IMG/VR virus record: IMGVR_UViG_3300049732_000150
Coordinates: 1-20,780 of that record
DNA: 20,780 bases
Strand: one strand, 5' to 3'
DNA from: a virus
Shown here piece by piece: positions 2,491 to 20,188 of the stretch. Under the pieces are notes generated by a model, which was given only the letters and a program-made list of their open reading frames with translations, was not told the DNA's origin and made no database searches. Every line of letters begins with the position of its first letter. Positions within the stretch are counted from its first letter, which is position 1. Position numbers and translations under genes: made by a program.

Positions 2491-3558
2491 TTACAGCGAG
2501 AACGCGTTCAGCGAATTGGTTTGGATGAGCGTCAGCCGGAACGGGTTCACGAACGGCATCCCCGCCGGCGACGACGCCGCGAGCTTCGCCATGAACACGA
2601 GGTCCGGCTTGACCTGCGTCGGCCCGTCGAGCGGCAGCGACGCTTCGTCCAGCTCCAGGTGCGGGAACTGGTACGTGCGCGTGTACCGGTCGGTCGAGTT
2701 GATGAACGTCCCGAGGAACGTCCAGTCGGCCTTCCAGGCCACGCCCGGCGTGCGGAGCGCGGCGTAGAACGACGCGATGCCCGTCGTGAACCGCGGCGCC
2801 TTGACGGTCAGCTTCACCGTCGGCCAGCCGTTGTCGGCCGGTTCGGCGATGAAGTCCTGGCTGAAGACGAACGGCGCGTCCTGCGGCCGCTCGAACTCGA
2901 AGTCGATCGTCTCGGCCTCCAGCTTGTCGCCGGCCGCGAGCGCCGAGGCGCCCTGCAGGTTGATCCGGAACGTGCCGTGCGACCGGAAGATCCGATTCGA
3001 CAGCGACGGGTAGGACGCGCCATAGACGGTCGAGTTGATGTTGACCGACGAGATGTTCGTCGGCTTCGACCCGAGCACGTAGTAGCCGCGGTCCATCACG
3101 CCGCCCTCGCCCACGACTTCCGTGAAGCCGCGGATTTTGGCGGAGGTCAGCTCTTCGATGAACCGGACCTTGTCGAACGCGAACGTCGCGCCGAACCCGT
3201 CAATCGACGGCGCGAGGTCCATGATGTGCAACCACGACGTGACCTGGCCGGACGCCGAGGTCGAGATCGTGACCGCCGCCGGCGAGCCCATCGCGAGCGC
3301 GTCGAGCGCGTAGTTCCAATCGTTGTACCGGCTGCGCCCCATGAGCGTCAGGTCCGGCGCTTCGACATCGCCAAGGTCGCCCGAGCCGAGGAACGACTGG
3401 CCGAACGCCTCGTCGTTCACGCGCGCGGGCCGGAGCTGCAGGCCGCCGTCCGAGGCGAAGTAGGCGCCGCGCGTCACGGACGCCGCCACGCCCCACGAGT
3501 TGGTGCCGAACTTGGCAAACGCGACGCCGCGGGATTCGCGGCCAGTAACGCCTGGCAT
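2491..3558 (-). CDS. Major tail tube protein
   Basis: A 355-residue protein with a strong SD (GTAGGAGG, overlapping the previous stop; 5-base spacing to the ATG at 3558). It is beta-rich with many alternating hydrophobic residues and no signal peptide or membrane segment. It lies between the tail terminator and chaperone genes, where siphophages keep the tube subunit, and the high-quality SD fits a highly expressed structural gene. The length exceeds the minimal tube fold (about 150-250 residues), so an additional surface domain is likely; boundaries cannot be placed by eye. Hexameric rings of this protein would stack into the tube through which DNA passes. The lack of a neighbouring sheath gene argues for a non-contractile tail. 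Confidence 0.85.
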   Translation of the reverse strand: MPGVTGRESRGVAFAKFGTNSWGVAASVTRGAYFASDGGLQLRPARVNDEAFGQSFLGSGDLGDVEAPDLTLMGRSRYNDWNYALDALAMGSPAAVTISTSASGQVTSWLHIMDLAPSIDGFGATFAFDKVRFIEELTSAKIRGFTEVVGEGGVMDRGYYVLGSKPTNISSVNINSTVYGASYPSLSNRIFRSHGTFRINLQGASALAAGDKLEAETIDFEFERPQDAPFVFSQDFIAEPADNGWPTVKLTVKAPRFTTGIASFYAALRTPGVAWKADWTFLGTFINSTDRYTRTYQFPHLELDEASLPLDGPTQVKPDLVFMAKLAASSPAGMPFVNPFRLTLIQTNSLNAFSL

Positions 3559-3566
3559 AGGGCCTC

Positions 3567-3989
3567 CTACAAAGTGGCTTCGAAGTTCACGCCGACCGAC
3601 AGCCGCGCGACCTGATAGGCCGCACCGTCGACCGGCACCAAGTCCACCGCGCGGTCGAGGTCGTCGACGGCGTACTCGCCGCTGACCTCCGCGCCGTCCC
3701 GCACGATCGCCCGGAGTACCGTCCGCGCGTCTTGATAGAGCTTCCGCGTGGCCTCGGGCGAGTTGTTATTGGTCGGCCGGATCAGGTCGATCACGATCCG
3801 GCCCCGGGCTTCTTCGTTGAACGCGAACGCGCCCTTCGGCGGCATGCCGACGTACGTCACGAGGAACCGCTTGTCCGTCGCGCCGATCGTGAGGCGGGAC
3901 AGATCGCGGCCGACGACTTCCGCAAAGCCGAGCGTGCTCGCGAGCACCGCGCGCACGCGATCCACGACGGCGTCCTCAGTCGTCGCCAT
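3567..3989 (-). CDS. Tail terminator / tail completion protein
   Basis: A 140-residue protein whose ATG at 3989 shares one base with the upstream stop (TGATG), indicating coupled translation. The sequence starts with a helix (EDAVVDRVRAVLAS), then beta segments (RFLVTYVGMP, GRIVIDLIRP), then helix YQDARTVLRAIV, ending in a beta-type VARLSVGVNFEATL. This helix-beta arrangement and size fit gpU-like tail terminators, which cap the tube and join it to the head. The position right before the tail tube gene supports this. No catalytic motif is expected. A neck/head-completion role is the main alternative. Confidence 0.75.
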   Translation of the reverse strand: MATTEDAVVDRVRAVLASTLGFAEVVGRDLSRLTIGATDKRFLVTYVGMPPKGAFAFNEEARGRIVIDLIRPTNNNSPEATRKLYQDARTVLRAIVRDGAEVSGEYAVDDLDRAVDLVPVDGAAYQVARLSVGVNFEATL

Positions 3990-4828
3990 CACATCCGCTC
4001 CAGCGTCCAGCCGCCGCTCGAGACTTCGGCCGCGGTCTGCTGCCGTTCGGTCTCGTCGATGGCGTCGCTGCCGTCGGTGTCGAACTCGGGGCCGAGCTGG
4101 TCGACGACGCGCGCGAACGCCGTATCGGCCTCCGCCGCATACCAGACCGCCTTGTCGGTCCACGGCCCGTCCTGCCCCGCCGGCGCCTCGCGGAAGATGA
4201 GCGCGAGCGTCCGGAGCGTCACCGCCGCCGCCAAGCGCGAGCGGCGAATCACCGCCCACGGCCCGGCCATCGCCCCCGTCGGCACCGCCGACAGCGACAG
4301 CCGCACCCAGAACAAGGGGTCGGAGCCGTTCAGCACGCGCTGCGCGACGCCGTCCGGCACATCCCAGGTGATGGCGCCGCCCTTGCCGAAGGGCTTCAGG
4401 CCGCTGATGGCCTCGTTCTGCACGTTCGCCGGCGTTTCCCAGCCGTCCACCCAGACGCGCAGATCGAGCGCGGCGTCGACCGAGGAGACGCTGTCGGTCA
4501 TCCGCAGCGACAGGCCGCGGAAGATGTCCGTGAACCCGAGGTAGAGATAGTCAGACGCCGAGGCGAACGTCGCCGCCAGATCCAGCCCGTCGGCCGCCGC
4601 GACCTCGGTCGTGCGGTCGGTCGAGCCCGCGAACGCCTTGATGGGCACGTGTCGCGTGCGCAGGCGCGCCGGCGAAAACCCGCGCTGCTCGAGCAGCGGA
4701 AACAGCCAGTCCTCGATCGCCTTCGAGCGTCGCCGCAGCCATTCGGTCTTGCCGAACTGCGTCAGGATCGTTTGCTCGTACGAGAGCAGATCCTGATCGG
4801 TGACGAGGTCCGCAGGGTGCCACGACAT
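3989..4828 (-). CDS. Head-tail connector/adaptor with an inserted beta-sandwich domain
   Basis: 279 residues from the ATG at 4828, which is preceded by AAGGG 8 bases upstream. The N-terminal part (about 1-55) is helical (DLLSYEQTILTQFGKTEWLR), and the C-terminal part (about 200-279) is again helical (LRTLALIFREA, KAVWYAAEADTAFARVVDQL), as in gp6/gp15-like connector proteins. Between them, about residues 70-195, is a beta-rich module with YLYLGFTDIFRGLSL, LDLRVWVDGWE, GAITWDVPDG and FWVRLSLSAVP, a pattern I associate with decoration or binding modules in phage structural proteins. It is 19 bases downstream of the large glycosyltransferase gene and coupled to the tail terminator. The connector call comes from position and helical ends; the beta module could mean a neck or whisker-like decoration. 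Confidence 0.62.
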   Translation of the reverse strand: MSWHPADLVTDQDLLSYEQTILTQFGKTEWLRRRSKAIEDWLFPLLEQRGFSPARLRTRHVPIKAFAGSTDRTTEVAAADGLDLAATFASASDYLYLGFTDIFRGLSLRMTDSVSSVDAALDLRVWVDGWETPANVQNEAISGLKPFGKGGAITWDVPDGVAQRVLNGSDPLFWVRLSLSAVPTGAMAGPWAVIRRSRLAAAVTLRTLALIFREAPAGQDGPWTDKAVWYAAEADTAFARVVDQLGPEFDTDGSDAIDETERQQTAAEVSSGGWTLERM

Positions 4829-4847: not shown

Positions 4848-7826
4848 TCACGCGGGCACCTCAACGGGATCCGGCGCCACGGTCGCCATCGGCTCGACAT
4901 CCAACACCCAGGGCTCCGCCGCCTTGAACGTCTGCGTCAGCCGGTAGTCCAGCCACTGCCGGGCCTGTTCGGGCGTCCGCGCCCAGAACCGGACCGCCGT
5001 CGCATGCTCGTCCCCCAACCCCTGCTGTTTGGCCGCGAACCCGCACTCCACCTGAATCGCCCCCTCGACTTTTTCGAGGCAGGCCTCATAGAACGGCCGC
5101 GCCAGCGCGTGGTAGAGGTGAGCCGGATCGGCGAAGTACCGTTCGAAGATGCCGATCGCCTGCGACCGGTAGTGCTTGCCCTTCTCTGTGAGTTGGCCTC
5201 GCGTCCGTTCCGATTCCCAGAGCGCGAAGTTGGTGTAGTCGCGCATCACGAGAAGCTTGCCGAGCGTGCGATCGGGAAACATCTGCTGGTCGCGCTTCAA
5301 AAGCGGGAGGTTGCGGTTGATGCACTTGTCCCGCCGGATCGCCTCGGTCAGGTACCCCGTGTGCGCAATCCCGACGTCGGTCACCTCCATGCACGGCCGG
5401 ATGAGCCCGTTGCAGTCGTCCTGCTGCGGCTGTTCATGGATGCAACCGTAGAACGCGATCTCGGGCACGCGCTTGAACAGCCGGGTCGGCCGGTCGAAGT
5501 GCGGCGCCTGGTCGAGCGACAGGTGATGCTGCCGAATGATGTAGCCGTGGTAGAGCGGCCCGGAATCGATGTACTTGCGGAGCTGCTGGCCGCCCGACAG
5601 CACCTCGTCCGTATCGATCCACAGGAAGTACTCGCCCGTGGCGGCCTCGCGCGTGAGATTGCGGGCCTCGCTGAACCCGCCGGGCAAGGCCTCGACCGGA
5701 CCGATCGTGAGGATGCGGCCTTTTCGCGGAAACTCCGTGAGCACGACGTCCAGGTCGGCGCGGTTCTCGAGCGGGCCCGTATCGCCGATGATGATCTCGT
5801 CGGCGATGGCCCAGACGGACTCGAGGCACTTCCGGATGTCGGTGACCTGGTTCGCGAGAATCCCGACCGACAACGTCGGCCGCGGCCGCTCGAGCACGCG
5901 GCGATCAAAATCGCGCCGGCCCGTCGGACGACTCGGGTCCTTCACGTACTGCAGAAACCAGTTCCCGACGAACGACCCCAGCCGCGTCTGGCCGGTCATG
6001 AACAGCGCCTTGATGCGCAGGTCACGCTTCTGGCTGAACACCGCCTCCAGTTGCGCCGGCGTGAAGTGATGGACGTGGCTGGGCTTCCACGGCAGCCGCG
6101 GATGCGCAATTTCCACCATCGGGCCGAAGGGCACCGAGAACGCGACCGTGCCACCGGGCGCGCAGAACGATTCCGCGAAGTCCACGAACCCGCTGCAGTC
6201 GCGGATGTGCTCGAGAATCTCTCCGGCCCAGACGCCATCGAACTCCGCGTCGAACGGCAGCGGTTCGGGCTGCTGCGTCGCCATGTTCCAGATGGGCAAC
6301 ACGTAGAACGAACACCGATCGGCAATCCCAAGCTGCGTCGCGAGCGCCTTCGCCTTCTCGATGTTCACACTCGAGAAGTCCACGCCGACGACGGTCCGGG
6401 TCTTGTCCGACATCGCCAGCATCATGGCGAAGGTGCCGGTGCCGCAGGCCAGATCGAGCACGCGCTTCCGGCCCTCGAACGCCGCCAGGCAGTGGCCGTG
6501 CCGATTCTCCGGGTGCGCTTTGGCGTCGTTCAATTCCTGGACCGGATCCATCGCGTGCGTCGCGTAGTCGTCGGCCGTGTGCTCGAGCCCGGCCGCGACG
6601 CGGTCGCAGAACGCCATCGTCTGGGCGTCGCCCAGTTCCGCGGCGATGAGCTTCGCGGTCTCGTGGTCGTCGTGATGCAGGAAGGACCGCAGGACCTCGG
6701 GCTTGCGCGCCGCGTAGCGGGTCTGGAACGACTGCAGCAGCCACGCCTCCCACTCGGCGGCGAGCACCTCGTAGCTGTAGGCCTGTACGTGCGCGCGGCC
6801 GGCCTGCTGGATCCCCCGGTAGGCCACCGTCTGGTGGCGGCAGCCGTCTAGCATCCGGACCACGGCCTCAATGGAGGCGTTCTGATACGTGTCGGACATG
6901 GCATCGCCCGGCACGAGCTCCCCGTGCGGCACTGTTTCCGGGAGCGCCCCCTTGTAGGACCCGACAAACAGGCAGCCGTTGGCCTGCGCCTCGATCGCCG
7001 CGATGCAGCTCGTCTCGGCGAAATCGACGACGCCCGGGTACCACATGACGGCCGCCTCGGCGAGCGCCTGGTAGAGCGCCGGCTTGCCGAGCTCGCCGAG
7101 ATACGTGATCCCGCCGACCGACGCGTGCACCTCGGCGACGCGCGCGTCGAAGCTCTTGCAGACCTGGCCCCAGCCGCCGGCGTCGTACATCGAGTCGTAG
7201 CGGGCGATGTGCAGCTCGGCGTCCGGCACGCGCGCCCGCAGGGCCGGCCACATCGCGAGCAGCGGCGCCACGCCGCGCTCCGGACGCGAAATGTGAATGA
7301 TCCGATTCGCGCGGCGAATGCCGGCGGTGGCCTTCGCCAGGCCGGCGTCGTGGCCGTTCTTGGTCACCCAGCCGAGCGGCGCGAGGTCCGGGAGGACGCC
7401 CTCCCACTGCTTGCGGTGGAACGCGCTGACGTACGCGACCGCGTCATAGGCCCAGGCGCAGCCCATGATGAGCGACTTCATGTTCTCGTGGCCCATCAGG
7501 TCCTGATTCCAGAGCACGCGGAATCGGGCCTTGACCGGCGCGGTGAGCGGCATCGGCTGCCGGAGCGCGACCAGGACGTCCCAGTCCTTCACCGCCGACA
7601 CCCCGACGTACTCGGACGACGCGTGCCACGCGACGCCAGCGTGGTCGATGAGCGGCGCATCGGCGCCGATCTTGGTCGTGAAGATGTGGACGTCGTGCCC
7701 ACGCGCCACGAGCGCGCGCGCGAGACCGAGGCAGGCCGACTCGGACCCGCCGAGGGAGACCGACCCGTCAATCACGCCGGCGGTGAACTCGACCGAATCG
7801 ACGGTGAAGGCGATGGTGAGCCGCAT
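4848..7826 (-). CDS. Three-domain GT4 glycosyltransferase - SAM methyltransferase - GT2 glycosyltransferase fusion
   Basis: 992 residues; the ATG at 7826 overlaps the previous stop (TGATG). Domain 1 (about 1-370) is a GT-B, GT4-like transferase: LGGSESACLGLARAL at 25-39 is the N-terminal glycine loop, and the donor-site EX7E motif is E271-E279 within ETSCIAAIE. Domain 2 (about 400-640) is a class I methyltransferase: motif I VLDLACGTG at 456-464, acidic VVGVDFSS at 479-486, and a GEILEHIRD motif at 535-543. Domain 3 (about 650-970) is a GT-A, GT2-like transferase: LSVGILANQ at 652, FSEARNLTREAATGEYFLWI ending at 737, and the metal-binding DTD at 738-740, then GCIHEQP and the HTGYL segment. 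There is no signal peptide or membrane segment, so it acts in the cytoplasm. All key motifs look intact. Its place between capsid and tail genes suggests glycan building on virion proteins; modifying host surface glycans is the alternative. Confidence 0.93.
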   Translation of the reverse strand: MRLTIAFTVDSVEFTAGVIDGSVSLGGSESACLGLARALVARGHDVHIFTTKIGADAPLIDHAGVAWHASSEYVGVSAVKDWDVLVALRQPMPLTAPVKARFRVLWNQDLMGHENMKSLIMGCAWAYDAVAYVSAFHRKQWEGVLPDLAPLGWVTKNGHDAGLAKATAGIRRANRIIHISRPERGVAPLLAMWPALRARVPDAELHIARYDSMYDAGGWGQVCKSFDARVAEVHASVGGITYLGELGKPALYQALAEAAVMWYPGVVDFAETSCIAAIEAQANGCLFVGSYKGALPETVPHGELVPGDAMSDTYQNASIEAVVRMLDGCRHQTVAYRGIQQAGRAHVQAYSYEVLAAEWEAWLLQSFQTRYAARKPEVLRSFLHHDDHETAKLIAAELGDAQTMAFCDRVAAGLEHTADDYATHAMDPVQELNDAKAHPENRHGHCLAAFEGRKRVLDLACGTGTFAMMLAMSDKTRTVVGVDFSSVNIEKAKALATQLGIADRCSFYVLPIWNMATQQPEPLPFDAEFDGVWAGEILEHIRDCSGFVDFAESFCAPGGTVAFSVPFGPMVEIAHPRLPWKPSHVHHFTPAQLEAVFSQKRDLRIKALFMTGQTRLGSFVGNWFLQYVKDPSRPTGRRDFDRRVLERPRPTLSVGILANQVTDIRKCLESVWAIADEIIIGDTGPLENRADLDVVLTEFPRKGRILTIGPVEALPGGFSEARNLTREAATGEYFLWIDTDEVLSGGQQLRKYIDSGPLYHGYIIRQHHLSLDQAPHFDRPTRLFKRVPEIAFYGCIHEQPQQDDCNGLIRPCMEVTDVGIAHTGYLTEAIRRDKCINRNLPLLKRDQQMFPDRTLGKLLVMRDYTNFALWESERTRGQLTEKGKHYRSQAIGIFERYFADPAHLYHALARPFYEACLEKVEGAIQVECGFAAKQQGLGDEHATAVRFWARTPEQARQWLDYRLTQTFKAAEPWVLDVEPMATVAPDPVEVPA

Positions 7827-8026
7827 CACGCCCGCCGCCGGATGGTGGTGGCCTGGTCGTCCACGGCCGCGGTGGCTCGGGCGCGATCGGTGTCGACCTG
7901 ATCGAGCGCGGGCTGAATCTCAGATTGGATGACGCGCTGCCATTCAGCCCAGACGGACGTGCGGATCTGCACCGTGCCCCCGGACGTGTAGCGGATCGCT
8001 TTCATTTGTTCGAAGACGTGATGCAC
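7826..8026 (-). CDS. Small helical protein of unknown function upstream of the glycosyltransferase fusion
   Basis: 66 residues from the GTG at 8026. That start is chosen over the in-frame ATG at 8005 because GGGGAGGGG lies just upstream of the GTG, while the ATG has no SD. The C-terminal two thirds (WAEWQRVIQSEIQPALDQVD onward) are predicted by eye to be one long charged helix. No membrane segment or known motif is visible. It begins just after the hairpin terminator and its stop overlaps the start of the fusion gene, so the two are co-translated and may work together. I do not recognise the family; a minor capsid, neck or accessory role is possible. Confidence 0.7.
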   Translation of the reverse strand: MHHVFEQMKAIRYTSGGTVQIRTSVWAEWQRVIQSEIQPALDQVDTDRARATAAVDDQATTIRRRA

Positions 8027-8110: not shown

Positions 8111-9286
8111 TTAGCCGCTGACGCGGATGCGCGCCATCGCCGCCGGGTGGTACACCTCGACGGTGTATTCGCCCGCGATCAGCTCTTTCTCGTTGTCGCC
8201 CTGCCGACCGATCGGCAGGACCGTGAACGACCGTCCCTGCAGGTTCTTCACCTTGACGCGCTGCTTCGGCACGAGCAGGAGCTCGTCCGCGTCGAGCGCG
8301 CGGCTGAAGAAGACGTTCGCCTTGCCGAACGGACCCTCGTAGGTCCGCACGACCCGCTTGAAGCCTTCCGTCGCCGAGACGTCCTCGATCTTGCTGTCGT
8401 TCATGTTGGAGATCAGGCGGAAGTTCGTGCGGCCCGCGATGATGCCCCAGTCCTCGGTCTCGGGACTGGCGCCGGCGGACACGATGTTCTCCCACGCATC
8501 CCCGAGGTAGACGTGGGCGTTCGCCGTGAACGAGGCCACCGTGACCGTGGAGTTGATCGCGCCCGTGGCGCCGGTGATCCACTCCTTGAGGCCCTTCATC
8601 GTGCGCGTGGTCGTGGCCGACGCCAGCGAGTTGGCCGCGTTCAGCACGCCACGGGTCACTTCGACCTCGAGCGAGTACAGCGCCTGCTCCAGCGCCTTGC
8701 GGCGCTGCGTGTCCAGCATGTTCCGGCCGAAGCCGGCGAGCGCCTGGTTGGTACCCGAGACGGCGATCGGGATGTGGAACAGGCCGACCGTGTTGGCCCG
8801 GCGATCACCGAGGAGCCGCGTGCCACGCCCGTTGTGGTCGTCGCCTTCCACGCCGGCCGCCGCCGTGATCCAGAGCGTCCCGCCGACCGCGAGCGAACCG
8901 GAGCCGGCCGCCACCGCGCCGCCGTAGCCGCGCGCGAGCGTGATCGAATCCGCGCCGACGATCGACTTCACCTGGTAGTACTCCGGGTTGGCCGAGCGGT
9001 TGTGCAGGACCGTCCCGATGGTCAGCGCGAGGCCCTTGCCGTTGATGGCAATGGAGATGTCGCCGCCGGTCGTCGACGCGATCGCGGTGGAGGTGATGAC
9101 GCTGTTGGGCAGCGCGTAATCGTCCCACCACTCGTGCTTGGTGGACGTCGCCGGATCATCGGCATCGCCGAGCCAGCCGAGCAGGGTCAGTTCTTTCGGA
9201 TGCAGCTCGATCAGCGCGGCGGCCACGTCTTCCTGGACGCCGCTGATCGTGAGCAGTTCGTTCGAGGCAACACCGGTGAAAGGCAT
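8111..9286 (-). CDS. Major capsid protein, SU10 / DUF5309 type
   Basis: 391 residues with a strong SD (GAGGGAG, 5 bases before the ATG at 9286). The N-terminal helical region contains KHEWWDDYALP; a beta insertion (about 75-135) carries ISIAINGKGLALTIGTVLHN and SITLARGYGG, the 'RG-gg' turn found in SU10-type capsid proteins. A long central helix (MLDTQRRKALEQALYSLEVE) matches the HK97 spine helix, and the C-terminus (LIAGEYTVEVYHPAAMARI) matches the family ending. It follows the scaffold gene and precedes a hairpin terminator, as expected for the most abundant virion protein. The HK97 fold with an insertion domain is family knowledge; the assignment is from residue patterns and synteny. Confidence 0.92.
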   Translation of the reverse strand: MPFTGVASNELLTISGVQEDVAAALIELHPKELTLLGWLGDADDPATSTKHEWWDDYALPNSVITSTAIASTTGGDISIAINGKGLALTIGTVLHNRSANPEYYQVKSIVGADSITLARGYGGAVAAGSGSLAVGGTLWITAAAGVEGDDHNGRGTRLLGDRRANTVGLFHIPIAVSGTNQALAGFGRNMLDTQRRKALEQALYSLEVEVTRGVLNAANSLASATTTRTMKGLKEWITGATGAINSTVTVASFTANAHVYLGDAWENIVSAGASPETEDWGIIAGRTNFRLISNMNDSKIEDVSATEGFKRVVRTYEGPFGKANVFFSRALDADELLLVPKQRVKVKNLQGRSFTVLPIGRQGDNEKELIAGEYTVEVYHPAAMARIRVSG

Positions 9287-9320: not shown

Positions 9321-10049
9321 TTAGCCCCGAGACGAGAGGGCATCGTTCGTCTGACGCGAGCGAATGTCAGCGCGATGCGCCTCGAGCGTGTCGTGGCCAG
9401 GCTTGGCGGAGGCGAGAGACTGCGTAAGCGACGCACCCGTCCGCGCCAGGCCCGTCCGGCTCGTGCCGGCGGCCTTGTGGTGCGGATGGTCGGTCAGGTA
9501 CGTCGTGACGAGACCCTCGAGAGAGACCGGCTTCTGGTCCTTATCGAGTCTGGGATTCCCGGGTTTGGCGAGGTCTTGCACGAACGGCTGGAACCCGTCG
9601 TCCAGCGCGATGTGCTTGTCGAGCAATTCCTTGATTTCTTCGATCGATTCGGCGCGGGCGCCGGCCTTGGCCGCCACGATGCCGAGCTCGTTCTTGACGA
9701 GCTCGCGGATGCGCGTCGTGCGCTTGTCGATCGCGGCCTGGCTCTTCGCGATCGTGTCGTCCTTCTCGGCGAGCGTCTTCGCGTGCCGCTCGTCGCGCTG
9801 CTGCTGAGCGGCGTCGAAGTTCTTGGTGCGCAGCGCTTCGGCTTCCTTCAGCTGCGAGGTCTCCAGCTCGAGGGCCTTCAGGCGTTCCCGGAGCACGGGA
9901 TCAGCGGACTGGCGCGCGGCTTCCTCGGCCGCGGCGGCCTTCGCCTTGCCGACGGCTTCACCGATGCGCTTGTCGAAAAACGTCTGCAGTTCCGCAGGCA
10001 GCGTCCCGATCTTGCCGTCGTCGCCGATCTCGATCTCGAGCTTGGGCAC
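9321..10049 (-). CDS. Capsid scaffolding protein
   Basis: 242 residues, highly charged and helical. Residues about 25-130 form a long coiled-coil rich in Ala, Glu, Lys and Gln (for example AVGKAKAAAAEEAARQ, RERLKALELETSQLKEAEAL). The C-terminal third is Gly/Ser/Thr-rich with short basic patches, consistent with the capsid-binding tail of phage scaffolds. It is directly upstream of the major capsid gene (34-base gap), the canonical position. The start at 10049 has AGGTG at close spacing and lies 4 bases after the previous stop. There is no recognisable protease motif, so it is a pure scaffold rather than a protease-scaffold fusion. It would be removed before DNA packaging. Confidence 0.9.
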   Translation of the reverse strand: MPKLEIEIGDDGKIGTLPAELQTFFDKRIGEAVGKAKAAAAEEAARQSADPVLRERLKALELETSQLKEAEALRTKNFDAAQQQRDERHAKTLAEKDDTIAKSQAAIDKRTTRIRELVKNELGIVAAKAGARAESIEEIKELLDKHIALDDGFQPFVQDLAKPGNPRLDKDQKPVSLEGLVTTYLTDHPHHKAAGTSRTGLARTGASLTQSLASAKPGHDTLEAHRADIRSRQTNDALSSRG

Positions 10050-10524: not shown

Positions 10525-10568
10525 GTCAGACGGCTGACATTGTGCGCCTGACACTGTCAACGAGTCAA
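10524..10568. promoter_or_regulatory. Operator cluster and probable promoter of the scaffold/capsid operon
   Basis: This divergent gap holds a perfect palindrome TGTCAG-N4-CTGACA (10524-10539), a second one TGACA-C-TGTCA (10549-10559), and between them TGACATTGTGCGCC (10535-10548), identical to an element in the portal promoter region. On the minus strand TTGACT (10563-10568) and CACAAT (10539-10544), 18 bases apart, could be the -35 and -10 boxes for the neck/scaffold/capsid genes. The palindromes overlap the boxes and the likely start point, so binding would repress transcription. The palindromes are seen directly; the promoter and regulator are inferred. Confidence 0.6.
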
Positions 10569-10599
10569 GAGGCCTGTCGGAAGCCTGACGCTTTCGCGT

Positions 10600-10605
10600 T
10601 ACTAT
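10600..10605 (+). promoter_or_regulatory. Possible -10 box (TACTAT) of the TM2 gene, implying a leaderless message
   Basis: TACTAT, a TANNNT-type -10, ends 8 bases before the ATG at 10614. No SD lies upstream of that ATG and no good -35 is seen. If used, transcription would start at or within a couple of bases of the start codon. Confidence 0.4.
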
Positions 10606-10613
10606 CCCCGGCT

Positions 10614-10940
10614 ATGACTGACACCCCAGCCAAAGGTCTCGACGAGAAGTACTGCGAATCCTGCGGCCAGGTCATCAAGATCCGGGCCGAGCTGTGTCCG
10701 AAGTGCGGCGTGCGCCAGCGCGCGGCGGCGGGATCGAGCGAGAAGAGCAAGGTCGCGGCGGGCCTCCTTGGCATCTTCCTCGGGGGCATCGGCGTCCACA
10801 AGTTCTACCTGGGCCAGACCGGCCTGGGCGTCGTGTACCTGGTGTGTTGCTGGACGTTCATCCCGGCCATCGTGGGCTTCGTCGAGGGGATCGTGCTCCT
10901 GTCGATGAACGACCAGCGGTTCGCGGAGAAGTACGCCTAG
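10614..10940 (+). CDS. Zinc-ribbon / TM2-domain membrane protein (moron gene)
   Basis: 108 residues, the only well-supported plus-strand gene. Residues 13-33 form a zinc ribbon with two CxxC knuckles (C14/C17 and C28/C31). A basic Ser/Lys linker (36-46) follows, then a TM2 domain: hydrophobic helix about 47-62, the hallmark GVHKFYLG turn at 60-67, and a second helix about 70-96 (LGVVYLVCCWTFIPAIVGFV). It should be an inner-membrane protein. Its strand is opposite to the surrounding structural genes and it has its own promoter-operator region, so it is best read as cargo expressed independently, perhaps during lysogeny. TM2 proteins have no settled function; superinfection exclusion is one guess. 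Its TAG stop overlaps the stop of the convergent HTH gene within a shared CTAG. Confidence 0.88.
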   Translation: MTDTPAKGLDEKYCESCGQVIKIRAELCPKCGVRQRAAAGSSEKSKVAAGLLGIFLGGIGVHKFYLGQTGLGVVYLVCCWTFIPAIVGFVEGIVLLSMNDQRFAEKYA

Positions 10941-12471: not shown

Positions 12472-14040
12472 TCACGCCGCCTGCTGCCCTGGCTTCGGCG
12501 GTTCCGGCTTCGCCTTCGGCTGCCCCGCCTCCGCCATGCGCGCGGCCGAGGCCTCGACCAGTGCGGCCTGCTTCTCTTCGGCGGTCAGGATCGTCTGCGC
12601 GTCGATCTCGTCGTCGATCGTCGCAGCCTGCTCCGGCGTCGCTTCCGGCAGCAGCGCCTTGGCGGTGTCTTTCTTGAGCTGCTTCGCCGCCGTTGCACCC
12701 AGATCCAGCGTCAGCGCCTCGACCGTGCGCGCGATGATCGCGTCGAGGTCCGGGAGCGTGAACTCCTTCGGCCAGGCGGTCCGCGGCTGCACGCGCGCGA
12801 GCTCGGCCTTCCAGCGATCGCCGTAGACGGCACGGAAGACCAACTCGGTCAGCTTGCGCTCAGACCCCGCGCACTCCTTGGCGAACTTGGTCAGCGCCGC
12901 GCGCATGTCTTCGCGCTTGAGCCGCTTTGAATCGGCCGCTTCGGCGTCGCGGGAATCGCCTTCCCAGGAGACCAGCGCGTTCCGGTAACAGGCGCGCACG
13001 ACGCGATCAATCTCGCGATGGTAGCCCTCGAGGCTCGTGCCAGACGGCTCGAGCAGGTTCGCCGGGTTGCGCGAGAAGAGCACGGACTGCGTGCCCGATT
13101 GCGAGCCGATGAGCGTGCGCTCCGACTCGACGTCACCGTCCTGCCCGATGGGCACGTTGATCATCGCGAAGGTCTGGCCCCGGAGGAGCTCACGCCCTTC
13201 CGACCCCATGTTGTAGAGGTCGAGGTACACCTGCGGATCGCCGAGGATGGACTTCCCGACGACCTTGATGAGGCTGCGCTTCCGGCTATAGAGCACCGCC
13301 ACCGGCAACACGCCGTAGTCGTGCTCGACCTTCTCGATTTCCGTGCCGCTGGCGTCGTAGGTCGTGTATGCCTTGGCGTCGATCACGCGCACGCGCAGGT
13401 CCGACGGCTTGGCGGCGACGTTCAGCGAGGCGCGTGGGGCGATGTCCAGGCACTTGATCGCCGTGAGCATCCCGCGCGCATCCGTCAGCCAGTCGATGAC
13501 GTCGAGCGGCGAGTACAGCGACGTCAGCGGGGCGGTCCGATCCGCGACGGTCTCAGCGTCCGACGGCGGTTCCGCCACCAGGAACGTGTGCCCGAACACG
13601 GCCGCCGGCACCCAGGCTTCCATCAGCACGTCATCGATCGATGCGCCGTTCCCGTCGGCGTCGGCCCACCAGAGGCGAATCGCCTCCTCGGGCTTGACGT
13701 CCTGGGCCACCGTGCGCGTCGGCAGCACGCCGAAGAGCGTGCCCTGCAGCGTGTCAACGATCGTCGACGCGATGTTTTCGTAGCGCGCCAGCTTCCAGCG
13801 CATGCGCAGCTTCGGCGACGGATTCATCGGCGACGGATTCGGCTGGCTACCGATTTTCTGGTTCTGGTCGTTCAGGACTGGGATGCTGTGGTCCTGCCAC
13901 TCGCGCGGGTGCGCGACGAGGTACGGTCGCCGGGCGTCGAGGAAGCCGCCGGCGCCCTCGTACACGTCGAAGAGCTGCGCCCAGACCGGTTGAAACTCTC
14001 GATAGAGCGGATGCTTCTGCGTCTGCTGGCGGGTGGCCAT
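12472..14040 (-). CDS. Portal protein
   Basis: 522 residues from the ATG at 14040 (MATRQQTQ). Features: N-terminal helical region with VYEGAGGFLDARRPYLVAHP, then LRMRWKLARYENIASTIVDTLQGTLF, a wing region with beta segments (SLYSPLDVIDWLTDARGML, LRVRVIDAKAYTTYD), the stem/crown helical region (about 300-420, SEGRELLRGQTFAMINVPIG and EADSKRLKREDMRAALTKFA), and a C-terminal charged, Ala/Gln-rich coiled tail. This pattern and the position between terminase and MuF mark it as the portal, a dodecamer at the head vertex. It resembles the DUF4055-type portal group, but that subgroup call is tentative. No SD is visible; the leader is about 10 bases if the promoter at 14057-14085 is used. Confidence 0.9.
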   Translation of the reverse strand: MATRQQTQKHPLYREFQPVWAQLFDVYEGAGGFLDARRPYLVAHPREWQDHSIPVLNDQNQKIGSQPNPSPMNPSPKLRMRWKLARYENIASTIVDTLQGTLFGVLPTRTVAQDVKPEEAIRLWWADADGNGASIDDVLMEAWVPAAVFGHTFLVAEPPSDAETVADRTAPLTSLYSPLDVIDWLTDARGMLTAIKCLDIAPRASLNVAAKPSDLRVRVIDAKAYTTYDASGTEIEKVEHDYGVLPVAVLYSRKRSLIKVVGKSILGDPQVYLDLYNMGSEGRELLRGQTFAMINVPIGQDGDVESERTLIGSQSGTQSVLFSRNPANLLEPSGTSLEGYHREIDRVVRACYRNALVSWEGDSRDAEAADSKRLKREDMRAALTKFAKECAGSERKLTELVFRAVYGDRWKAELARVQPRTAWPKEFTLPDLDAIIARTVEALTLDLGATAAKQLKKDTAKALLPEATPEQAATIDDEIDAQTILTAEEKQAALVEASAARMAEAGQPKAKPEPPKPGQQAA

Positions 14041-14056
14041 GCGGAGGTGTGTCCCG

Positions 14057-14085
14057 ATTATCGGGACCGCGGCGCACAATGTCAA
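14057..14085 (-). promoter_or_regulatory. Sigma70-like promoter for the portal operon
   Basis: On the minus strand TTGACA (14080-14085, perfect -35) is followed after exactly 17 bases by GATAAT (14057-14062, one mismatch to the -10 consensus). Predicted transcription starts near 14050, about 10 bases before the portal ATG. It is the best promoter match in the window and lies in the only substantial gap of the packaging region. The -10 sits within the palindrome TCCCGAT-T-ATCGGGA (14052-14066). Confidence 0.78.
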
Positions 14086-14115: not shown

Positions 14116-15630
14116 CTAGAAGCCGGGCAAGTCGCCCGTGCCGACGCCTCGCTTCGGCCGGTACAGGCGCCGGAGCGCCTGCGTCATCTGGTCGACGTCG
14201 TCGTCGTGCGCGCCGAACGGGAAGGCCGCGCACTCGTTCACGAACGCGTCGACCCACGGCGCGGTGTGCTCCCACGCGATGTCGACCGAGCCGTCACCGC
14301 GCTGCCGACCGGGCAGGTGGACGTTACCCGCCTCTAACAGGGGCACCACGGCGTGGGCCCGTACGACCTTGTCTGCGACCGGGTTATCAGGGACGACGCC
14401 GCCGATCTTCTGGCGCAGCTCGGCGATGGCGTCGGGCCCGGCCGCGCGGTTCTCGATGACCACCTCGGGAATAACAGTCGGGAAGCGTTTCCGGAGCCGC
14501 GCGTGCATCGCTTCGACTTCCTGCACGCAGATGGCCAGGTTCCAATGCCCCGCCGCATGGTCGATCGCGTAGACGTTCGGGCCCACCTGGCCCCAGGCGC
14601 CGACCGCCCAGAGATCGTTGATTTCCTTCGCGCGCTGCGCCGGGTCGACGCTGATCAGGACGCGCGTCGGATGGAGCGGCAGGCGCGGATCGTAGAACCG
14701 CCAGTACACGCGCTTGAGCAGCCCGCCTTCGGTCGGCGTCGGCTGCTGCTGGAAGAGCGCCGACCAGTCGTAAGCGCTGTAGCCCTTGCGGCGCATCAGC
14801 TCCTCGAGGGGATAGCGTGCCGGCCAGAGCGGCTCGTTCGGCCCGCGCGGATCCTCGGGGTGCAGCTGCCCTTCCTGGATGAGCTTGGGCTCCGCGACGG
14901 CTGGGAACGAGATCAGCTCCCACGGCTCGCCGCCGTCTTTCTTCGCGTGCTGCAGCAGGCGCCCGGCCAGGTCGTCCTCGTGCCACCGCGTGGTGATGAC
15001 CACGAGTCGGCCGCTGTCGCCAAACTGGCGGTTATAGAACACCGACGTGAAGAAGTCCCAGACCTTCTTCCGCATCACCGCGGACTCAGCTTCTTCGCGG
15101 TTCTTGATGGGGTCGTCCATCAGGCCGATGTCGGCGGTCTTGCCCGCGATCGACCCGCCCACACCGGCCGACACGTAGTAGCCGCGATGGCCGACGACCT
15201 GGAAGAGGCGCGTCGTCTTCGTTTCGTCGTCCTTGCCCGTCGCCAGGCGCGTCTGCGGGAAGATCAGCCGGTACGGCGCGCTGCCGATGATGCGCTGCAC
15301 GTCGTTCGACATGTCGTGCGCGAGCTCGGCGGCGTAGCTCGACCCGACGATGCGGAGATCCGGGTTGCGGCCGAGCGCCCAGGCCGGGAACTGGCGCGAG
15401 CCCAGCTCCGACTTGCCGTTCTGCGGCGGCATGCAGACGATCAGCCGACGGCAGTCGCCCGTGAACACGCGCTCGAGCGCGCGGGCGTAGACGTGGTGGT
15501 GCCAGTTCGGAATGAACTCGCCGCGGGTCGTGCGACGCGTGAAGGCGATCAGGCGCCGGCGGGCGACCTCGTCCTCGAGCGCGATCAGGCGATCGATCGC
15601 GCGCTGCCGTCGAGCCGTCGCGCGACGCAT
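14116..15630 (-). CDS. Terminase large subunit
   Basis: 504 residues, complete. ATPase domain: Walker A-like MPPQNGKS at 67-74, Walker B-like IGLMDDP at about 168-174 and the coupling motif TTRWHEDD at 213-220. Nuclease domain: SVDPA with D329, VIENRAAG with E393 and the metal-binding cluster GAHDDDVDQ at 473-481, all intact. The enzyme cuts concatemeric DNA and drives it through the portal. The ATG at 15630 is 4 bases after the small terminase stop. The length is normal for this family. The acidic pair after the Walker B hydrophobics is DD rather than the more usual DE, a conservative difference. Followed by a 75-base regulatory gap before the portal gene. Confidence 0.97.
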   Translation of the reverse strand: MRRATARRQRAIDRLIALEDEVARRRLIAFTRRTTRGEFIPNWHHHVYARALERVFTGDCRRLIVCMPPQNGKSELGSRQFPAWALGRNPDLRIVGSSYAAELAHDMSNDVQRIIGSAPYRLIFPQTRLATGKDDETKTTRLFQVVGHRGYYVSAGVGGSIAGKTADIGLMDDPIKNREEAESAVMRKKVWDFFTSVFYNRQFGDSGRLVVITTRWHEDDLAGRLLQHAKKDGGEPWELISFPAVAEPKLIQEGQLHPEDPRGPNEPLWPARYPLEELMRRKGYSAYDWSALFQQQPTPTEGGLLKRVYWRFYDPRLPLHPTRVLISVDPAQRAKEINDLWAVGAWGQVGPNVYAIDHAAGHWNLAICVQEVEAMHARLRKRFPTVIPEVVIENRAAGPDAIAELRQKIGGVVPDNPVADKVVRAHAVVPLLEAGNVHLPGRQRGDGSVDIAWEHTAPWVDAFVNECAAFPFGAHDDDVDQMTQALRRLYRPKRGVGTGDLPGF

Positions 15631-15989: not shown

Positions 15990-16484
15990 TCATGACTCAG
16001 GCCGGTCAACCGCGAGCACCGGGAACCGGCGCGCGCGCTCCTCGGCGAGAAAGCGTTCGGTCCACGGCAGGACGAGCTCGGCGTGGCCGGGATCGCGTGG
16101 ACGCAGCCAGCGACCTCCCCATCTCAAGCCGAGCCGTTCGGCTTCTTCGCCGATGGCCGCGAAGGCCGGATGCGTCACGTCCCAGCTGACCTTGTCCGGG
16201 CCATGCGCGTCGTAGACCTCGTACGGCGCCAGGTCGATGGCGTCGGCCTTGTCGCGGTCCGCCTCCTCAAGCGGCGTGCCCGGTTGCCAGCGGATGCGAC
16301 GCGGCAGGTGCAACGAGAACGGCGTCGCGCTCGTGCCCGCGTTCAGGTTGGCGACGTGCTCCTCGGGCGTGCGGCTGGTCTGGACGACAAGGATCGCGAA
16401 CCCGCGCGCCGTCACGCGCGCGATGAGCGCGCAGGCCAGCGGCAGGAACGCCGACGACAGCGAGTCGAGAGAGCGATCCGGCAT
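15990..16484 (-). CDS. Endolysin, M15-type peptidase (L-Ala-D-Glu / D,D-peptidase-like)
   Basis: 164 residues from the ATG at 16484, overlapping the upstream stop (TGATG). The pattern is that of peptidase M15: QTSRTPEEHVANLNAGTS at 35-52, the zinc ligand H59 in SLH, D84 in ADAIDLAP, the hydrophobic WGGRW at 122-126, and D131 with H134 in RDPGHAEL as the catalytic acid and last zinc ligand. In most family members H and D of the first motif are about 7 residues apart; here 24 residues separate them, an insertion rich in Pro, Arg and acidic residues. It would cleave cell-wall peptides at lysis. The first 30 residues include a hydrophobic stretch (SAFLPLACALIARV) that looks more like a buried helix than a signal peptide. 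A location directly before the terminase is unusual. Confidence 0.88.
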   Translation of the reverse strand: MPDRSLDSLSSAFLPLACALIARVTARGFAILVVQTSRTPEEHVANLNAGTSATPFSLHLPRRIRWQPGTPLEEADRDKADAIDLAPYEVYDAHGPDKVSWDVTHPAFAAIGEEAERLGLRWGGRWLRPRDPGHAELVLPWTERFLAEERARRFPVLAVDRPES

Positions 16485-16864
16485 CACGCGGCCGCCCGAT
16501 ATTTCGTGTTACGGCCCGCGCCGAGCCGCAGGAGCCGGCCCTCCTTTTCCAGCTTGAGCACGGCCTTCTTCACGTCCTGCGGCCTGGCGTTCCCCGCCGC
16601 CGCGAGTGCCTTCAGTGTGACGGGCTCGGCCGCGGCGCTCGTGAGGCGATGCTCCAGTGAGCCTTCGGCCAAGCGCGGGCGGCGGCCCTTCTTCGCCGGT
16701 GTCGCGGTCGCAACCTTCGCGACTGTTTTCGCCACGAGGCGGCCGATGCGCTCGAGCGTCTGTCGGAGGATCGCGTTCGTCTTCCGCATGGCGAGCAGCT
16801 CGGCGTCAGCGCTCGAGGCCTGCTCGAGCAGCTCCTGCAGCGCGTGAAGTTTCGAGGTGCTCAT
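16484..16864 (-). CDS. Coiled-coil plus winged-helix protein
   Basis: 126 residues with GGAGG 4 bases before the ATG at 16864. Residues about 5-48 form a coiled coil (LHALQELLEQASSADAELLA, RKTNAILRQTLERIGRLVAK). A basic Ala/Thr/Lys linker (about 50-65) follows, then a winged-helix-like domain (about 68-124): LEHRLTSAAAEPVTLKALAA, AAGNARPQDVKKAVLKLEKE, GRLLRLGAGRNTKYRAAA, in which the last segment is the beta wing. Dimeric DNA binding is likely; it may be a phage regulator or a DNA-packaging helper. It lies directly upstream of the endolysin and terminase genes and downstream of a microsatellite that could affect its translation. It is a candidate regulator of the shared operators; that link is inferred only. 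Confidence 0.78.
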   Translation of the reverse strand: MSTSKLHALQELLEQASSADAELLAMRKTNAILRQTLERIGRLVAKTVAKVATATPAKKGRRPRLAEGSLEHRLTSAAAEPVTLKALAAAGNARPQDVKKAVLKLEKEGRLLRLGAGRNTKYRAAA

Positions 16865-17125: not shown

Positions 17126-18405
17126 CACCGGTTCCCGAAGATCGCCCGCAGGAGCAGCACCCACCACGCGGGCTTCGGCTCCGGCTCCGGTTCGGGTGCC
17201 GGCGCCGGCACGGGCACGACCGTCACCGAGCGGATGTTGCTCTTGGGCCGGCCGACTTGTGTCGCTTGCAGGTCGTACGTGCCAGGTTCCTCGAACTCGA
17301 AGAAGTGCGTCGGCGGCGCTTCGGGCTCGGACGGCCGGTCCACGACCAGCGTCCACGCGACCGCCGGCTGCTTCCGCCGCCAGAACGTGACCGGCCGATC
17401 GACCGTCGCCTCGTACACGGATGCCTGCACGCGGAGCGGCGCCATCCCGCTGTCGGCCGACACCAGGAGCACCAGCGGGCCCGGCGTGGGATCGGGCGGC
17501 GTCGGCCCCGAGCTGGCCTCGGGCTCAGTCGGAATCACCCGCGCGGCCCGGAGGTCGATCGCGTCGATCGTGGTCACGCCGGCGACGAACGTCGCGACGT
17601 ACGCCACCGTCCCGAGGACCGCCCAGCTCGCCCACGAGTCCTGATTCGGCCGCTCGAGCACGATCGAGCGCGGCTCCCCGAACGGCCGCAGGAACACGAA
17701 GAACCGCCCCGACGGTTCGTGAAAGCAGCACGTCACGAGCCACGGGTCTCCGGCTTCGTCGCGGTAGACGCCGGCGACGCTCTCGCGCGTCCATGGCGCG
17801 GCCTCGAGCAGCGGCCCGTCCAGGTCGAAGGGCTTGACCAGGCTGTAGGCGGCACTCGTGCCATCGACGAGCGCCGCATCGAGCGCGCCACCGCCTTGGG
17901 CGACGATCGGCGGCTGCCATTGCCCGAGGAGCCCGACGGCGACATGCGCGTTCGCGTGGTCGCGCGCCAGTACCCAGCCGTCCTCGCCGAGCTTGGCTTC
18001 GCCGGCCGGATCGAACGGCAGGACGAGCGGGACGTTGTCGAGCCACGCCTGCCCGGGGAGCGTGGTCAGCCGGTAGCCCGAGCGGACGGTTTGATTGCCG
18101 GCCCAGTCCTCGCCGAGCGCCGAGGCTTGGAAGGTCGCGAGGTTGACCGCCTGGCGCGTCCACGTCGGGCCCGGCCGCATCTCCCAGCCGTGCGCGAACC
18201 CGTCCTCGAGGCCGAACTGCAGCGCGCCGTTCGGGTTGATGCCACCTGTGACGCTGCGCTTGAGCGCGAGCGACGGCGAGAGCTCGACGAGCCGCCACGG
18301 CGACCCGGCCACGCCCGTCGAGCAGTAGAGCTGCCCGTTGTGCACGCCGAGGCGCGGGAACGCGCCCGGGATCTGGATCGTCGCGAGCGGGCGATGGGTG
18401 ATCAT
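17125..18405 (-). CDS. Ig/PKD-like domain protein with beta-rich N-terminus and hydrophobic C-terminal tail
   Basis: 426 residues; the ATG at 18405 overlaps the ParB stop (ATGA) and AGGG lies about 9 bases upstream. The first 290 residues are beta-rich with several Trp/Gly-containing turns (GQLYCSTGVAGSPWRLVELS, DPWLVTCCFHEPSGRFFVFL), compatible with a propeller-like fold, although repeats are not clean. A Pro/Gly linker leads to an Ig/PKD-like domain at about 313-395, ending in PGTYDLQATQVG and SVTVVPVP. Then comes a charged PAPAPEPEPEPKP linker and an aromatic/hydrophobic tail, AWWVLLLRAIFGNR (413-426). There is no N-terminal signal peptide. It may be a virion surface, receptor-binding or membrane-associated protein; I do not recognise an exact family. 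Confidence 0.75.
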   Translation of the reverse strand: MITHRPLATIQIPGAFPRLGVHNGQLYCSTGVAGSPWRLVELSPSLALKRSVTGGINPNGALQFGLEDGFAHGWEMRPGPTWTRQAVNLATFQASALGEDWAGNQTVRSGYRLTTLPGQAWLDNVPLVLPFDPAGEAKLGEDGWVLARDHANAHVAVGLLGQWQPPIVAQGGGALDAALVDGTSAAYSLVKPFDLDGPLLEAAPWTRESVAGVYRDEAGDPWLVTCCFHEPSGRFFVFLRPFGEPRSIVLERPNQDSWASWAVLGTVAYVATFVAGVTTIDAIDLRAARVIPTEPEASSGPTPPDPTPGPLVLLVSADSGMAPLRVQASVYEATVDRPVTFWRRKQPAVAWTLVVDRPSEPEAPPTHFFEFEEPGTYDLQATQVGRPKSNIRSVTVVPVPAPAPEPEPEPKPAWWVLLLRAIFGNR

Positions 18406-19850
18406 CGCGCGCGGCCCTTCGTCGCCTTCGCCGGCGTGCCCTTCTTCGCCTTCGACGCGGCCTTGAGCGTCGCGAGGTACGACTTCTCGAAGGCCGGGAA
18501 GTTCCAGCCGATGAGCTTCGAGTACTTCAGCATGTCCGCGCGCGTATCCACCTGCTCGTGCATGACCTGATCAGCGACGAGGCACGCGACGGCGGTGTCA
18601 GTTGTGATCGTCAACCCGAATGACTCCTTAAGGTCCCGGTCGGCGTAAATGAGCATCGCCTTCACGAGCGCTGGTGTCAGCGTCAGCTTCTTCAGCGTCG
18701 GGACCATCGCGAGGAACGAGGCGGCCTTCAGCCCCTCCCACGCCTCGCGCGCGAGCTGCTCTTTGTCGGCCTTGGCCTTCGCGGCCTTTCGCTCTTTCGC
18801 CAGGTCTCGGCTCGGGTGCGTGCCGCTGGTGCGTTCACGCGGCGGCGCCGGCGGGTAGTGCTTCTCGCACGTCTTCGTGCGGCAGATTTTGAACGTCGCC
18901 GTCCGGCCGCCGTGCACGACGATCGCCTGCTCGGCCTTCTCGCAGACGTCCTTCTTCGCGAGCAGCTCCTTGTAGGCCGAGCCCGGCAGCACACCGCCGA
19001 GCGCCTTCTGCTGCCGGTCGTTCAGGTAGTAGCTCAGCGAGACCTCGACGTAGGGCTTCGCGTCCGGCGCGGCCGCGGCCTGGACGACCTTCGCGATCTC
19101 CGGGAACTGCTCCTGCACTTCGGGGTCCTGCAGGTCAAGCTTCACGTTGGTCTCGAGCCACGTCCGAAACGCGCCGAGGCTGGTCACGTCCTGGCGCAGC
19201 TCGTCCCAGTTCTCGGCCTTGACGTGCTTCGCGACCTGGTCCCGCATGAGGTTCAGGAAACAGCCGTGCTCGAACGCGATCCACTGCTCGGCCTTCGGCA
19301 GCTTCGCCAGGCCCTCAGCGTGGCCTGCGGTGATGACGTCGGCCAGGAACGCCGCCGTGATGCGCGGGTCCAGATTCAGGAGCGCGAGCCGCCGCTTGAT
19401 GAACGCGACCGGCTTCCCGAACCGCGACGCGAGCGCCTCGACGGTGTAGACCTTGTCGAGCGTGCGCAGCTTCGCGAACGCGGCCGCCTCGTCCATCGGG
19501 TGCATGTCGTGGCGGACGATGTTCTCGGACAGCGCGTCCTCGAGGGCCTCCGCGTCGCTGAGCGCGCGGATGGTGACCGGCACGATCTTCAACCCCGCCT
19601 CCATCGCCGCGCGGTAGCGACGCTCGCCGGCGACGATGAGGTAGTGCCCGCCGTGGCTGTCGTTGACGCCGTTCGGCCGGACGACCAGCGACGACAGGAT
19701 GCCCCGCGCCTTGATCGACGCGACGAGCTCCGCGTCGCTGAGCGCGCTGCGCCGCGCGCGTGGCCGGGGATTGTCGGCCCACGGTTTGATCGCCGTGAGC
19801 GGCATGTACTCGAGGGCGGGCGGCTGGGTGATGGGTTCCGTGGCAGACAT
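18402..19850 (-). CDS. ParB/RepB/Spo0J-domain protein
   Basis: 482 residues from the ATG at 19850, chosen because GGAGGA lies 7 bases upstream; the frame is open further but has no good start. ParB N-terminal domain: DAELVASIKARGILSSLVVR near 39-58, the GERRYRA motif at 75-81 and the ENIVRHDMHPMDEA motif at 109-122. HTH domain at about 135-160 (TVEALASRFGKPVAFIKRRL). The C-terminal half is helical and contains a possible zinc site: C303, C323, C328, H331 in a stretch with KICRTKTCEKH. A basic Lys/Ala tail ends the protein. ParB proteins bind CTP and parS DNA for segregation; some phage versions act as nucleases or regulators. No ParA gene is in the window, so segregation is not established. 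Confidence 0.9.
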   Translation of the reverse strand: MSATEPITQPPALEYMPLTAIKPWADNPRPRARRSALSDAELVASIKARGILSSLVVRPNGVNDSHGGHYLIVAGERRYRAAMEAGLKIVPVTIRALSDAEALEDALSENIVRHDMHPMDEAAAFAKLRTLDKVYTVEALASRFGKPVAFIKRRLALLNLDPRITAAFLADVITAGHAEGLAKLPKAEQWIAFEHGCFLNLMRDQVAKHVKAENWDELRQDVTSLGAFRTWLETNVKLDLQDPEVQEQFPEIAKVVQAAAAPDAKPYVEVSLSYYLNDRQQKALGGVLPGSAYKELLAKKDVCEKAEQAIVVHGGRTATFKICRTKTCEKHYPPAPPRERTSGTHPSRDLAKERKAAKAKADKEQLAREAWEGLKAASFLAMVPTLKKLTLTPALVKAMLIYADRDLKESFGLTITTDTAVACLVADQVMHEQVDTRADMLKYSKLIGWNFPAFEKSYLATLKAASKAKKGTPAKATKGRAR

Positions 19851-20188
19851 CACTGAATCCTCCGTTCGGTGTGGATCACGTCGACGACGGGCAGCGCGGC
19901 GGCGCGGCAGAACGCCACGAGCGCCTCGCGGCCGACGAGGTTCTTCGGTTCGAGCAGGAACTCCAGCGCGAACACCGTTGGGTCGAGCGCGCGCTCGGGG
20001 AGTTGTTCGAGTAGCTCCGACAACAGCACCAGGCACGCCGCGGCCAGGACGTTCGCCGGAATCCGGTCGCGCAGATCGGCGAGCTCGCGGTACACGTCCG
20101 CGACGTCGCTGGTCCTGAAGAGCATGCGCAGCTGCGCCGCGGCGTACGCCTTCGCCGATTCGCGCGCGTCGAACTCGGCGGGTGTCAT
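19850..20188 (-). CDS. Small helical protein of unknown function
   Basis: 112 residues from the ATG at 20188 with AGGAG 5 bases upstream; the start overlaps the previous stop (ATGA) and the end overlaps the ParB start (ATGA), so it is translationally coupled on both sides. The sequence is nearly all helical: SAKAYAAAQLRMLFRTSDVA, DVYRELADLRDRIPANVLAA, CLVLLSELLEQLPERAL, then EALVAFCRAAALPVVDVI. The hydrophobic stretch AACLVLLSELL is too short and mixed to be a clear membrane span. Family not recognised. The context next to a ParB-domain gene suggests a role in early or DNA-metabolism functions, but this is inference only. Confidence 0.75.
   Translation of the reverse strand: MTPAEFDARESAKAYAAAQLRMLFRTSDVADVYRELADLRDRIPANVLAAACLVLLSELLEQLPERALDPTVFALEFLLEPKNLVGREALVAFCRAAALPVVDVIHTERRIQ

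Follow-up and report, generated by a model that had tools for sequence, protein, structure and literature searches.

What does a tailed phage modify with a single gene, set between its capsid and tail genes, that carries two glycosyltransferase domains and a methyltransferase domain? The question was raised by a stretch of viral DNA of 20,780 nucleotides (the window; IMG/VR record IMGVR_UViG_3300049732_000150), in which a reading from sequence only had placed a GT4-methyltransferase-GT2 fusion at 4848-7826. These coordinates held, but the strand was corrected to minus: the plus-strand reading of 4848-7826 is broken by a stop, and the frame runs from an ATG at 7826, or an alternative GTG at 7829, to a TGA at 4850-4848, giving 992 amino acids from the ATG. 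A 66-aa ORF (8026-7826) ends in a stop that shares 4 nt with the start of the fusion, and the gap from the 3' end to the next gene is 19 nt. A chance ORF was excluded because four relatives align with the fusion from end to end, at 36-52% identity, and because the gene order around it is kept across dozens of loci. An assembly or frameshift artefact was ruled out by the existence of independent full-length copies. One copy, in locus L084, is split.

The fusion lies within a block of minus-strand structural genes. In transcription order, these are the terminase large subunit (14116-15630; phrog_38, 3.4e-104), the portal protein (12472-14085; phrog_145, 5.9e-27), a MuF-like gene, a conserved gene that is a scaffold by position (9321-10049), the SU10-like major capsid protein, our presumed acceptor (8111-9286; PF17236, 3.4e-39; phrog_1328, 4e-24), the 66-aa ORF (7826-8026), which has relatives in several loci, the fusion, and probable connector and tail genes. 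In lineage A, described below, the fusion is followed by a gene of cluster c7, which encodes 279 aa in the window (3989-4828, minus strand). Another conserved neighbor of 355 aa (2491-3558, minus strand; cluster c4) is probably a tail protein by position. Neither matched a family. Other ORFs of the window were inspected by eye. One on the opposite strand to the structural genes (10542-10940, plus), between the MuF-like and scaffold-position genes, resembles a zinc ribbon at its N-terminus, contains a TM2-like membrane stretch, and is a possible moron. The ORF at 15990-16487 (minus), before the gene in the small-terminase position, has the look of an M15-type peptidase, and a ParB-like stretch was seen in the ORF at 18402-20036 (minus), at the upstream end of the packaging genes.

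The earlier claim of three complete enzyme domains in one ORF was borne out by profile matches, by the catalytic residues, and by an AlphaFold model of high confidence. Residues 1-371 (6714-7826, minus strand, like all the segments that follow) form a GT4 domain of GT-B fold with GGSE at 26-29, R181 and R184, and the EX7E motif as E271-X7-E279. In Pfam, PF13692 matched residues 177-308 (E = 9.5e-7), while PF13439 fell under its own cut-off. With a 30-sequence profile, the best solved match of this part was 6tvp (8e-14). VIA-align gave Z scores of about 30-33 against MshA, PimA, BshA, and other GT4 structures, in rows that span residues 1-371 only and thus speak to the GT4 domain alone. A poorly conserved helical connector (residues 372-441; 6504-6713), delimited by the AF2 model and by conservation, leads to residues 442-640 (5907-6503), which the profiles place among the methyltransferases, as had been proposed. 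PF13847 (6e-14; 52.4 bits against a cut-off of 27) and PF13489 (1e-13) matched residues 449-605, and motif I is present as LDLACGTG (LDxACGxG, 457-464), which together identify a class-I SAM methyltransferase; E536, E539, and H540 are further signature residues. Its best solved relatives with the 30-sequence profile were RebM (3bus) and AtmM (6uv6, named a D-glucose O-methyltransferase). This resemblance to sugar O-methyltransferases points to a putative activity on sugar hydroxyls.

The C-terminal part comprises a GT2 domain of GT-A fold (residues 648-841; 5304-5885), with the catalytic motif D738-T-D740-E741, and a helical domain in the AF2 model (residues 842-975; 4902-5303). From the single window sequence, the Pfam match to PF00535 was sub-threshold (E = 0.0019). 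The NCBIfam SunS model (TIGR04195) matched at 2e-7, with 30.2 bits against a curated cut-off of 350, so the domain is related to the SunS equivalog and is not a member of it. With the 30-sequence profile compared to solved structures, GmaR (2e-34), SunS (2e-24), and a ThuS-like chain (9e-22) were recovered, and at the level of sequence the GT2 identity is unambiguous. The alignment with GmaR revealed common FxxARN, DxDE, HE, HxGY, and RN motifs. This likeness does not fix the acceptor. Lipooligosaccharide glucosyltransferases belong to the same GT2 neighborhood and could have gone unseen in such a comparison if they lack solved structures.

An AlphaFold run with 5 sequences had modeled the GT2 domain poorly (pLDDT 71.9). 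It was superseded by a model from 30 sequences (pLDDT 90.5, pTM 0.89), which supports the three predicted folds, GT4, methyltransferase, and GT2. Foldseek searches with this model placed SunS/ThuS and GT4 enzymes, MshA and PimA among them, on top and AtmM/RebM lower; the GT2 domain matched SunS at 2e-14. By segment, conservation was highest in GT2, lower in the methyltransferase and helical parts, and lowest in the connector. No membrane segment was found in the fusion, where no hydrophobic 19-mer scores above 1.6 (maximum 1.26).

Next, the recurrence of the fusion was determined. A profile scan of IMG/VR found 62 loci, and a second scan seeded with the most distant members found 80. Removal of near-duplicates left 78 long homologues, 74 of which have the same three-domain plan and keep the methyltransferase and GT2 signatures; the remaining 4 lack these signatures and have a different architecture. 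The GT4 signatures are kept in most, with E or D at the first position of EX7E in all 78 and the second Glu replaced in 7. The question of whether the fusion recurs between head and tail genes can thus be answered with about 74 distinct full-length relatives in two head modules. Lineage A (34 loci, by capsid cluster) has the SU10-like capsid family, and most of its loci share the genes of the window. Lineage B (42 loci) has a cap-E/Mu-like module with a Mu-like portal, protease, cement protein, capsid-E-like protein, and gp36. Since loci inside one lineage are kin, they do not count as separate observations; independent evidence comes from the two head modules and from the analogous glycosyltransferase arrangements described below.

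Outside these records, relatives were scarce. None of 50,697 phage records, and no plasmid record, covers 80% of the fusion protein, and no mycobacteriophage was among the listed tblastn matches. A scan of genome contigs yielded two MAG contigs with relatives, which are probably binned phage, and 398 genomes of one phylum yielded one further short contig. Four low-GC loci (L066-L069) were rejected as relatives because the common part is GT4 only. Their proteins have 927-931 aa, are encoded on the opposite strand to long tail-fibre-like genes, and have a non-GT4 remainder that looks like GT2 domains. A GT2 match on an Enterococcus faecalis plasmid is flanked by a regulator gene and an ABC transporter gene, a setting consistent with the bacteriocin enzyme EntS but no proof of it.

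The fusion stands with structural genes, as the enzyme genes of virion glycosylation systems do. Among 71 distinct loci having at least 1.5 kb of upstream sequence, 63 carry the capsid gene at most 6 genes upstream on the same strand, and the median distance between the two genes is about 330 bp. On its other side, the fusion ends within 10 nt of the next gene or overlaps it in 49 of 76 cases; judged from sequence, such short gaps fit co-transcription. When the search was begun from the capsid, all capsid relatives of at least 39% identity had the fusion next to them wherever enough sequence was present. Below about 36%, the fusion was found in some (L196, L211) and was missing in others, namely L192, L194, L198, L201, Gram-positive-type prophages, and Sporosarcina phage Lietuvens. 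Another distant capsid relative, L202, has separate glycosyltransferase genes. The existence of capsid relatives without the fusion counts against the proposal made below and indicates that the fusion was added to a head module able to work alone. Its long retention since then is indicated by distances between fusion proteins, which correlate with those between capsid proteins (r = 0.88 in lineage A and 0.84 in lineage B). A similar value with another structural gene (r = 0.85) shows that this reflects shared vertical descent and not a specific link to the capsid. The place beside the capsid gene marks co-regulation, not the substrate.

We propose that the fusion is a soluble virion glycosyltransferase in which GT2 initiates, GT4 extends, and the methyltransferase O-methylates, with the capsid as the most probable acceptor; on balance, we consider this reading the probable one. 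The phage-encoded soluble protein would be made during head assembly. Sugar transfer would most likely begin at its C-terminal GT2 domain, of the GmaR/SunS/ThuS type, which would use a nucleotide-sugar of the host to glycosylate a Ser/Thr (or Cys) side chain on a virion protein; the likeliest target is the major capsid protein, whose gene lies a short way upstream. A second sugar would then be joined to the first by the GT4 domain, and the central methyltransferase would cap the glycan by O-methylation. With three activities in one chain, a short methylated glycan could be completed on each subunit with no free intermediates, and the particle might gain shielding, altered adsorption, or stability. 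From the evidence above we infer which protein accepts which sugars, by what linkage and in which order, and to what benefit, and the choice of a protein side chain follows from the kinship of the GT2 domain and the location of the gene. The sequence-only reading had left the target as virion proteins or the host surface. The virion side is favored here because of capsid adjacency in two head modules, a GmaR/SunS-like GT2, and the lack of a membrane segment. Its description of the system as self-contained was too strong, as no NAD-dependent epimerase was found in 15 long relatives; activated sugars and SAM are thus presumably supplied by the host. More tentatively, and short of calling it probable, we suggest that the fusion is a core gene of at least two lineages with different head modules and works as a one-chain protein O-(or S-)glycosylation machine that initiates on the capsid, adds a second sugar, and applies a methyl cap.

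The main rival to virion glycosylation is that the fusion modifies a host surface glycan, such as the LPS core or an O-antigen precursor, during late infection or in lysogens, and thereby blocks superinfection or re-adsorption of progeny. LPS is often built by GT4 and GT2 enzymes, and glycosyltransferases of temperate phages are known to alter host serotype (PMC12619734). Many of the phages studied here are temperate, since a tyrosine integrase scored over the cut-off in 8 of the 15 long relatives. Gtr-type serotype converters are membrane-spanning glucosyltransferases or flippases, however, and the fusion, with its low maximum hydrophobicity, is unlike them. Moreover, the gene occupies a place among the head genes, not a moron position, and this holds for both head modules; among solved structures its GT2 domain is nearest to protein glycosyltransferases. 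We therefore regard host-surface modification as unlikely.

Another possible explanation, slightly less likely still, keeps the virion as the target and moves the sugar from the capsid subunit to another protein, such as the tail tube, the small head protein encoded before the fusion, or a neck protein. Capsid and tail-tube subunits are both glycosylated in mycobacteriophages (PMC12619734, PMC12363180), and the capsid gene is often separated from the fusion by a small ORF. The capsid protein itself has no extended Ser/Thr-rich tail, which counts against the capsid as acceptor. On the other side, the capsid gene is the structural neighbor that both lineages share with the GT2-TPR-GT4 analogues described below. 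It is improbable that at least one domain has decayed or is structural only, leaving a single glycosylation. Conservation is indeed lower in the methyltransferase and helical parts than in GT2, and the Pfam GT2 match was sub-threshold in the window sequence, but 74 distinct proteins retain the signature residues of both the methyltransferase and GT2, and the second Glu of EX7E is replaced in so few. Glycosylation of phage DNA with hypermodified bases was put aside as very improbable, for although DNA glycosyltransferases are common in phages (PMC12619734), no gene of the thymidylate-synthase/hydroxymethylase family was found in the 15 long relatives, whose records may be fragments (control genomes were positive), the methyltransferase is nearest to sugar O-methyltransferases, and the gene is located in the head block.

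In less related phages, the place after the capsid gene is taken by a different glycosyltransferase fusion or by glycosyltransferases encoded separately. A GT2-TPR-GT4 fusion follows the capsid gene in L144, L145, L149, and the Manatee Spring podovirus MW202524 (L214:3147-5432). Like the fusion of the window, it joins two glycosyltransferases directly downstream of the capsid gene; unlike it, the order is opposite, TPR stands in the middle, and there is no methyltransferase domain. In MW202524, further glycosyltransferase and methyltransferase genes follow, the methyltransferases being separate genes, in contrast to the window fusion. A related GT2-TPR protein occurs in L143, where the capsid gene was not identified nearby. 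In six lineage-B loci (L098:7007-7969, L089, L091, L092, L101, and L141), a separate GT4 gene of about 320 aa (cluster c21) lies directly upstream of the fusion, which suggests a longer glycan in those phages. Radical SAM proteins of about 240 aa (cluster c11; PF04055, 6e-14) are encoded by 18 ORFs, mostly in lineage B, beside head genes and the fusion (for example L106:6752-7471, L072, L077, L094, L105, and L142). They may conceivably act as a second enzyme that modifies capsid proteins or sugars. In 14 of the 15 long lineage-A records, the fusion is the sole GT2 match, a point in favor of the proposal; G410, the 42.9-kb record of L042, differs in having three further GT2 genes.

Virion glycosylation in tailed phages has so far been known from few isolates, the mycobacteriophages. 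Dozens of environmental phages have this single-gene machine fixed next to the capsid gene; together with the convergent forms, this suggests that glycan coats are frequent on phage heads and under selection. If the proposal is true, methylated capsid glycans would be a widespread and overlooked trait of environmental tailed phages. The fusion offers a test with one gene and one acceptor, by co-expression in E. coli, is a candidate tool for site-specific protein glycosylation, and gives bacterial viruses a counterpart to the enzyme that chloroviruses have for the capsid glycan.

The proposed function has precedents. Flagellin is modified by the O-GlcNAc transferase GmaR, whose TPR part was proposed to bind it (PMC9638930), and SunS and ThuS are peptide S/O-glycosyltransferases (PMC12457901). 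These enzymes have the fold and the FxxARN, DxD, HE, HxGY, and RN motifs of the fusion GT2, which in GmaR is also followed by a helical (TPR) domain, but they are single glycosyltransferases acting on flagellin or bacteriocin peptides and have no GT4 or methyltransferase part. In mycobacteriophage Corndog, an O-methyltransferase and three glycosyltransferase genes lie in the structural operon, and methyl and glycan modification of the capsid was proposed (PMC4351075). The virions of Che8, Corndog, and Myrna are reported to be glycosylated (PMC12363180). Corndog gp35-gp38 and Che8 gp110 resemble the fusion in pairing an O-methyltransferase and glycosyltransferases with or near virion structural genes; they differ in being separate genes, placed between portal and protease in Corndog and near the right end of the genome in F1 phages. 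The closest parallel in design is A064R of chlorovirus PBCV-1, a GT-GT-MT protein of 638 aa that completes the glycan on the major capsid protein of the virus itself (PMC9614988, PMC7826918). Both are single viral polypeptides with two glycosyltransferase domains and one methyltransferase domain, a sugar O-methyltransferase in A064R. Compared by description, the order is GT-GT-MT in A064R, where domain 1 is GT-A and domain 2 a new GT family, and GT4(GT-B)-MT-GT2 in the fusion; moreover, A064R extends an N-glycan of an algal virus, whereas the fusion belongs to tailed phages. The fusion has no evident whole-length homology to A064R or the Corndog enzymes. Given A064R and the Corndog, Che8, and Myrna precedents, the proposed function is already known in kind. 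New here, as far as we have seen in the open-licence literature, are the single-chain GT4-MT-GT2 form, the GmaR/SunS-type GT2, the lack of a full-length relative in the 50,697 phage records, and the fixed place by the capsid gene in two phage groups.
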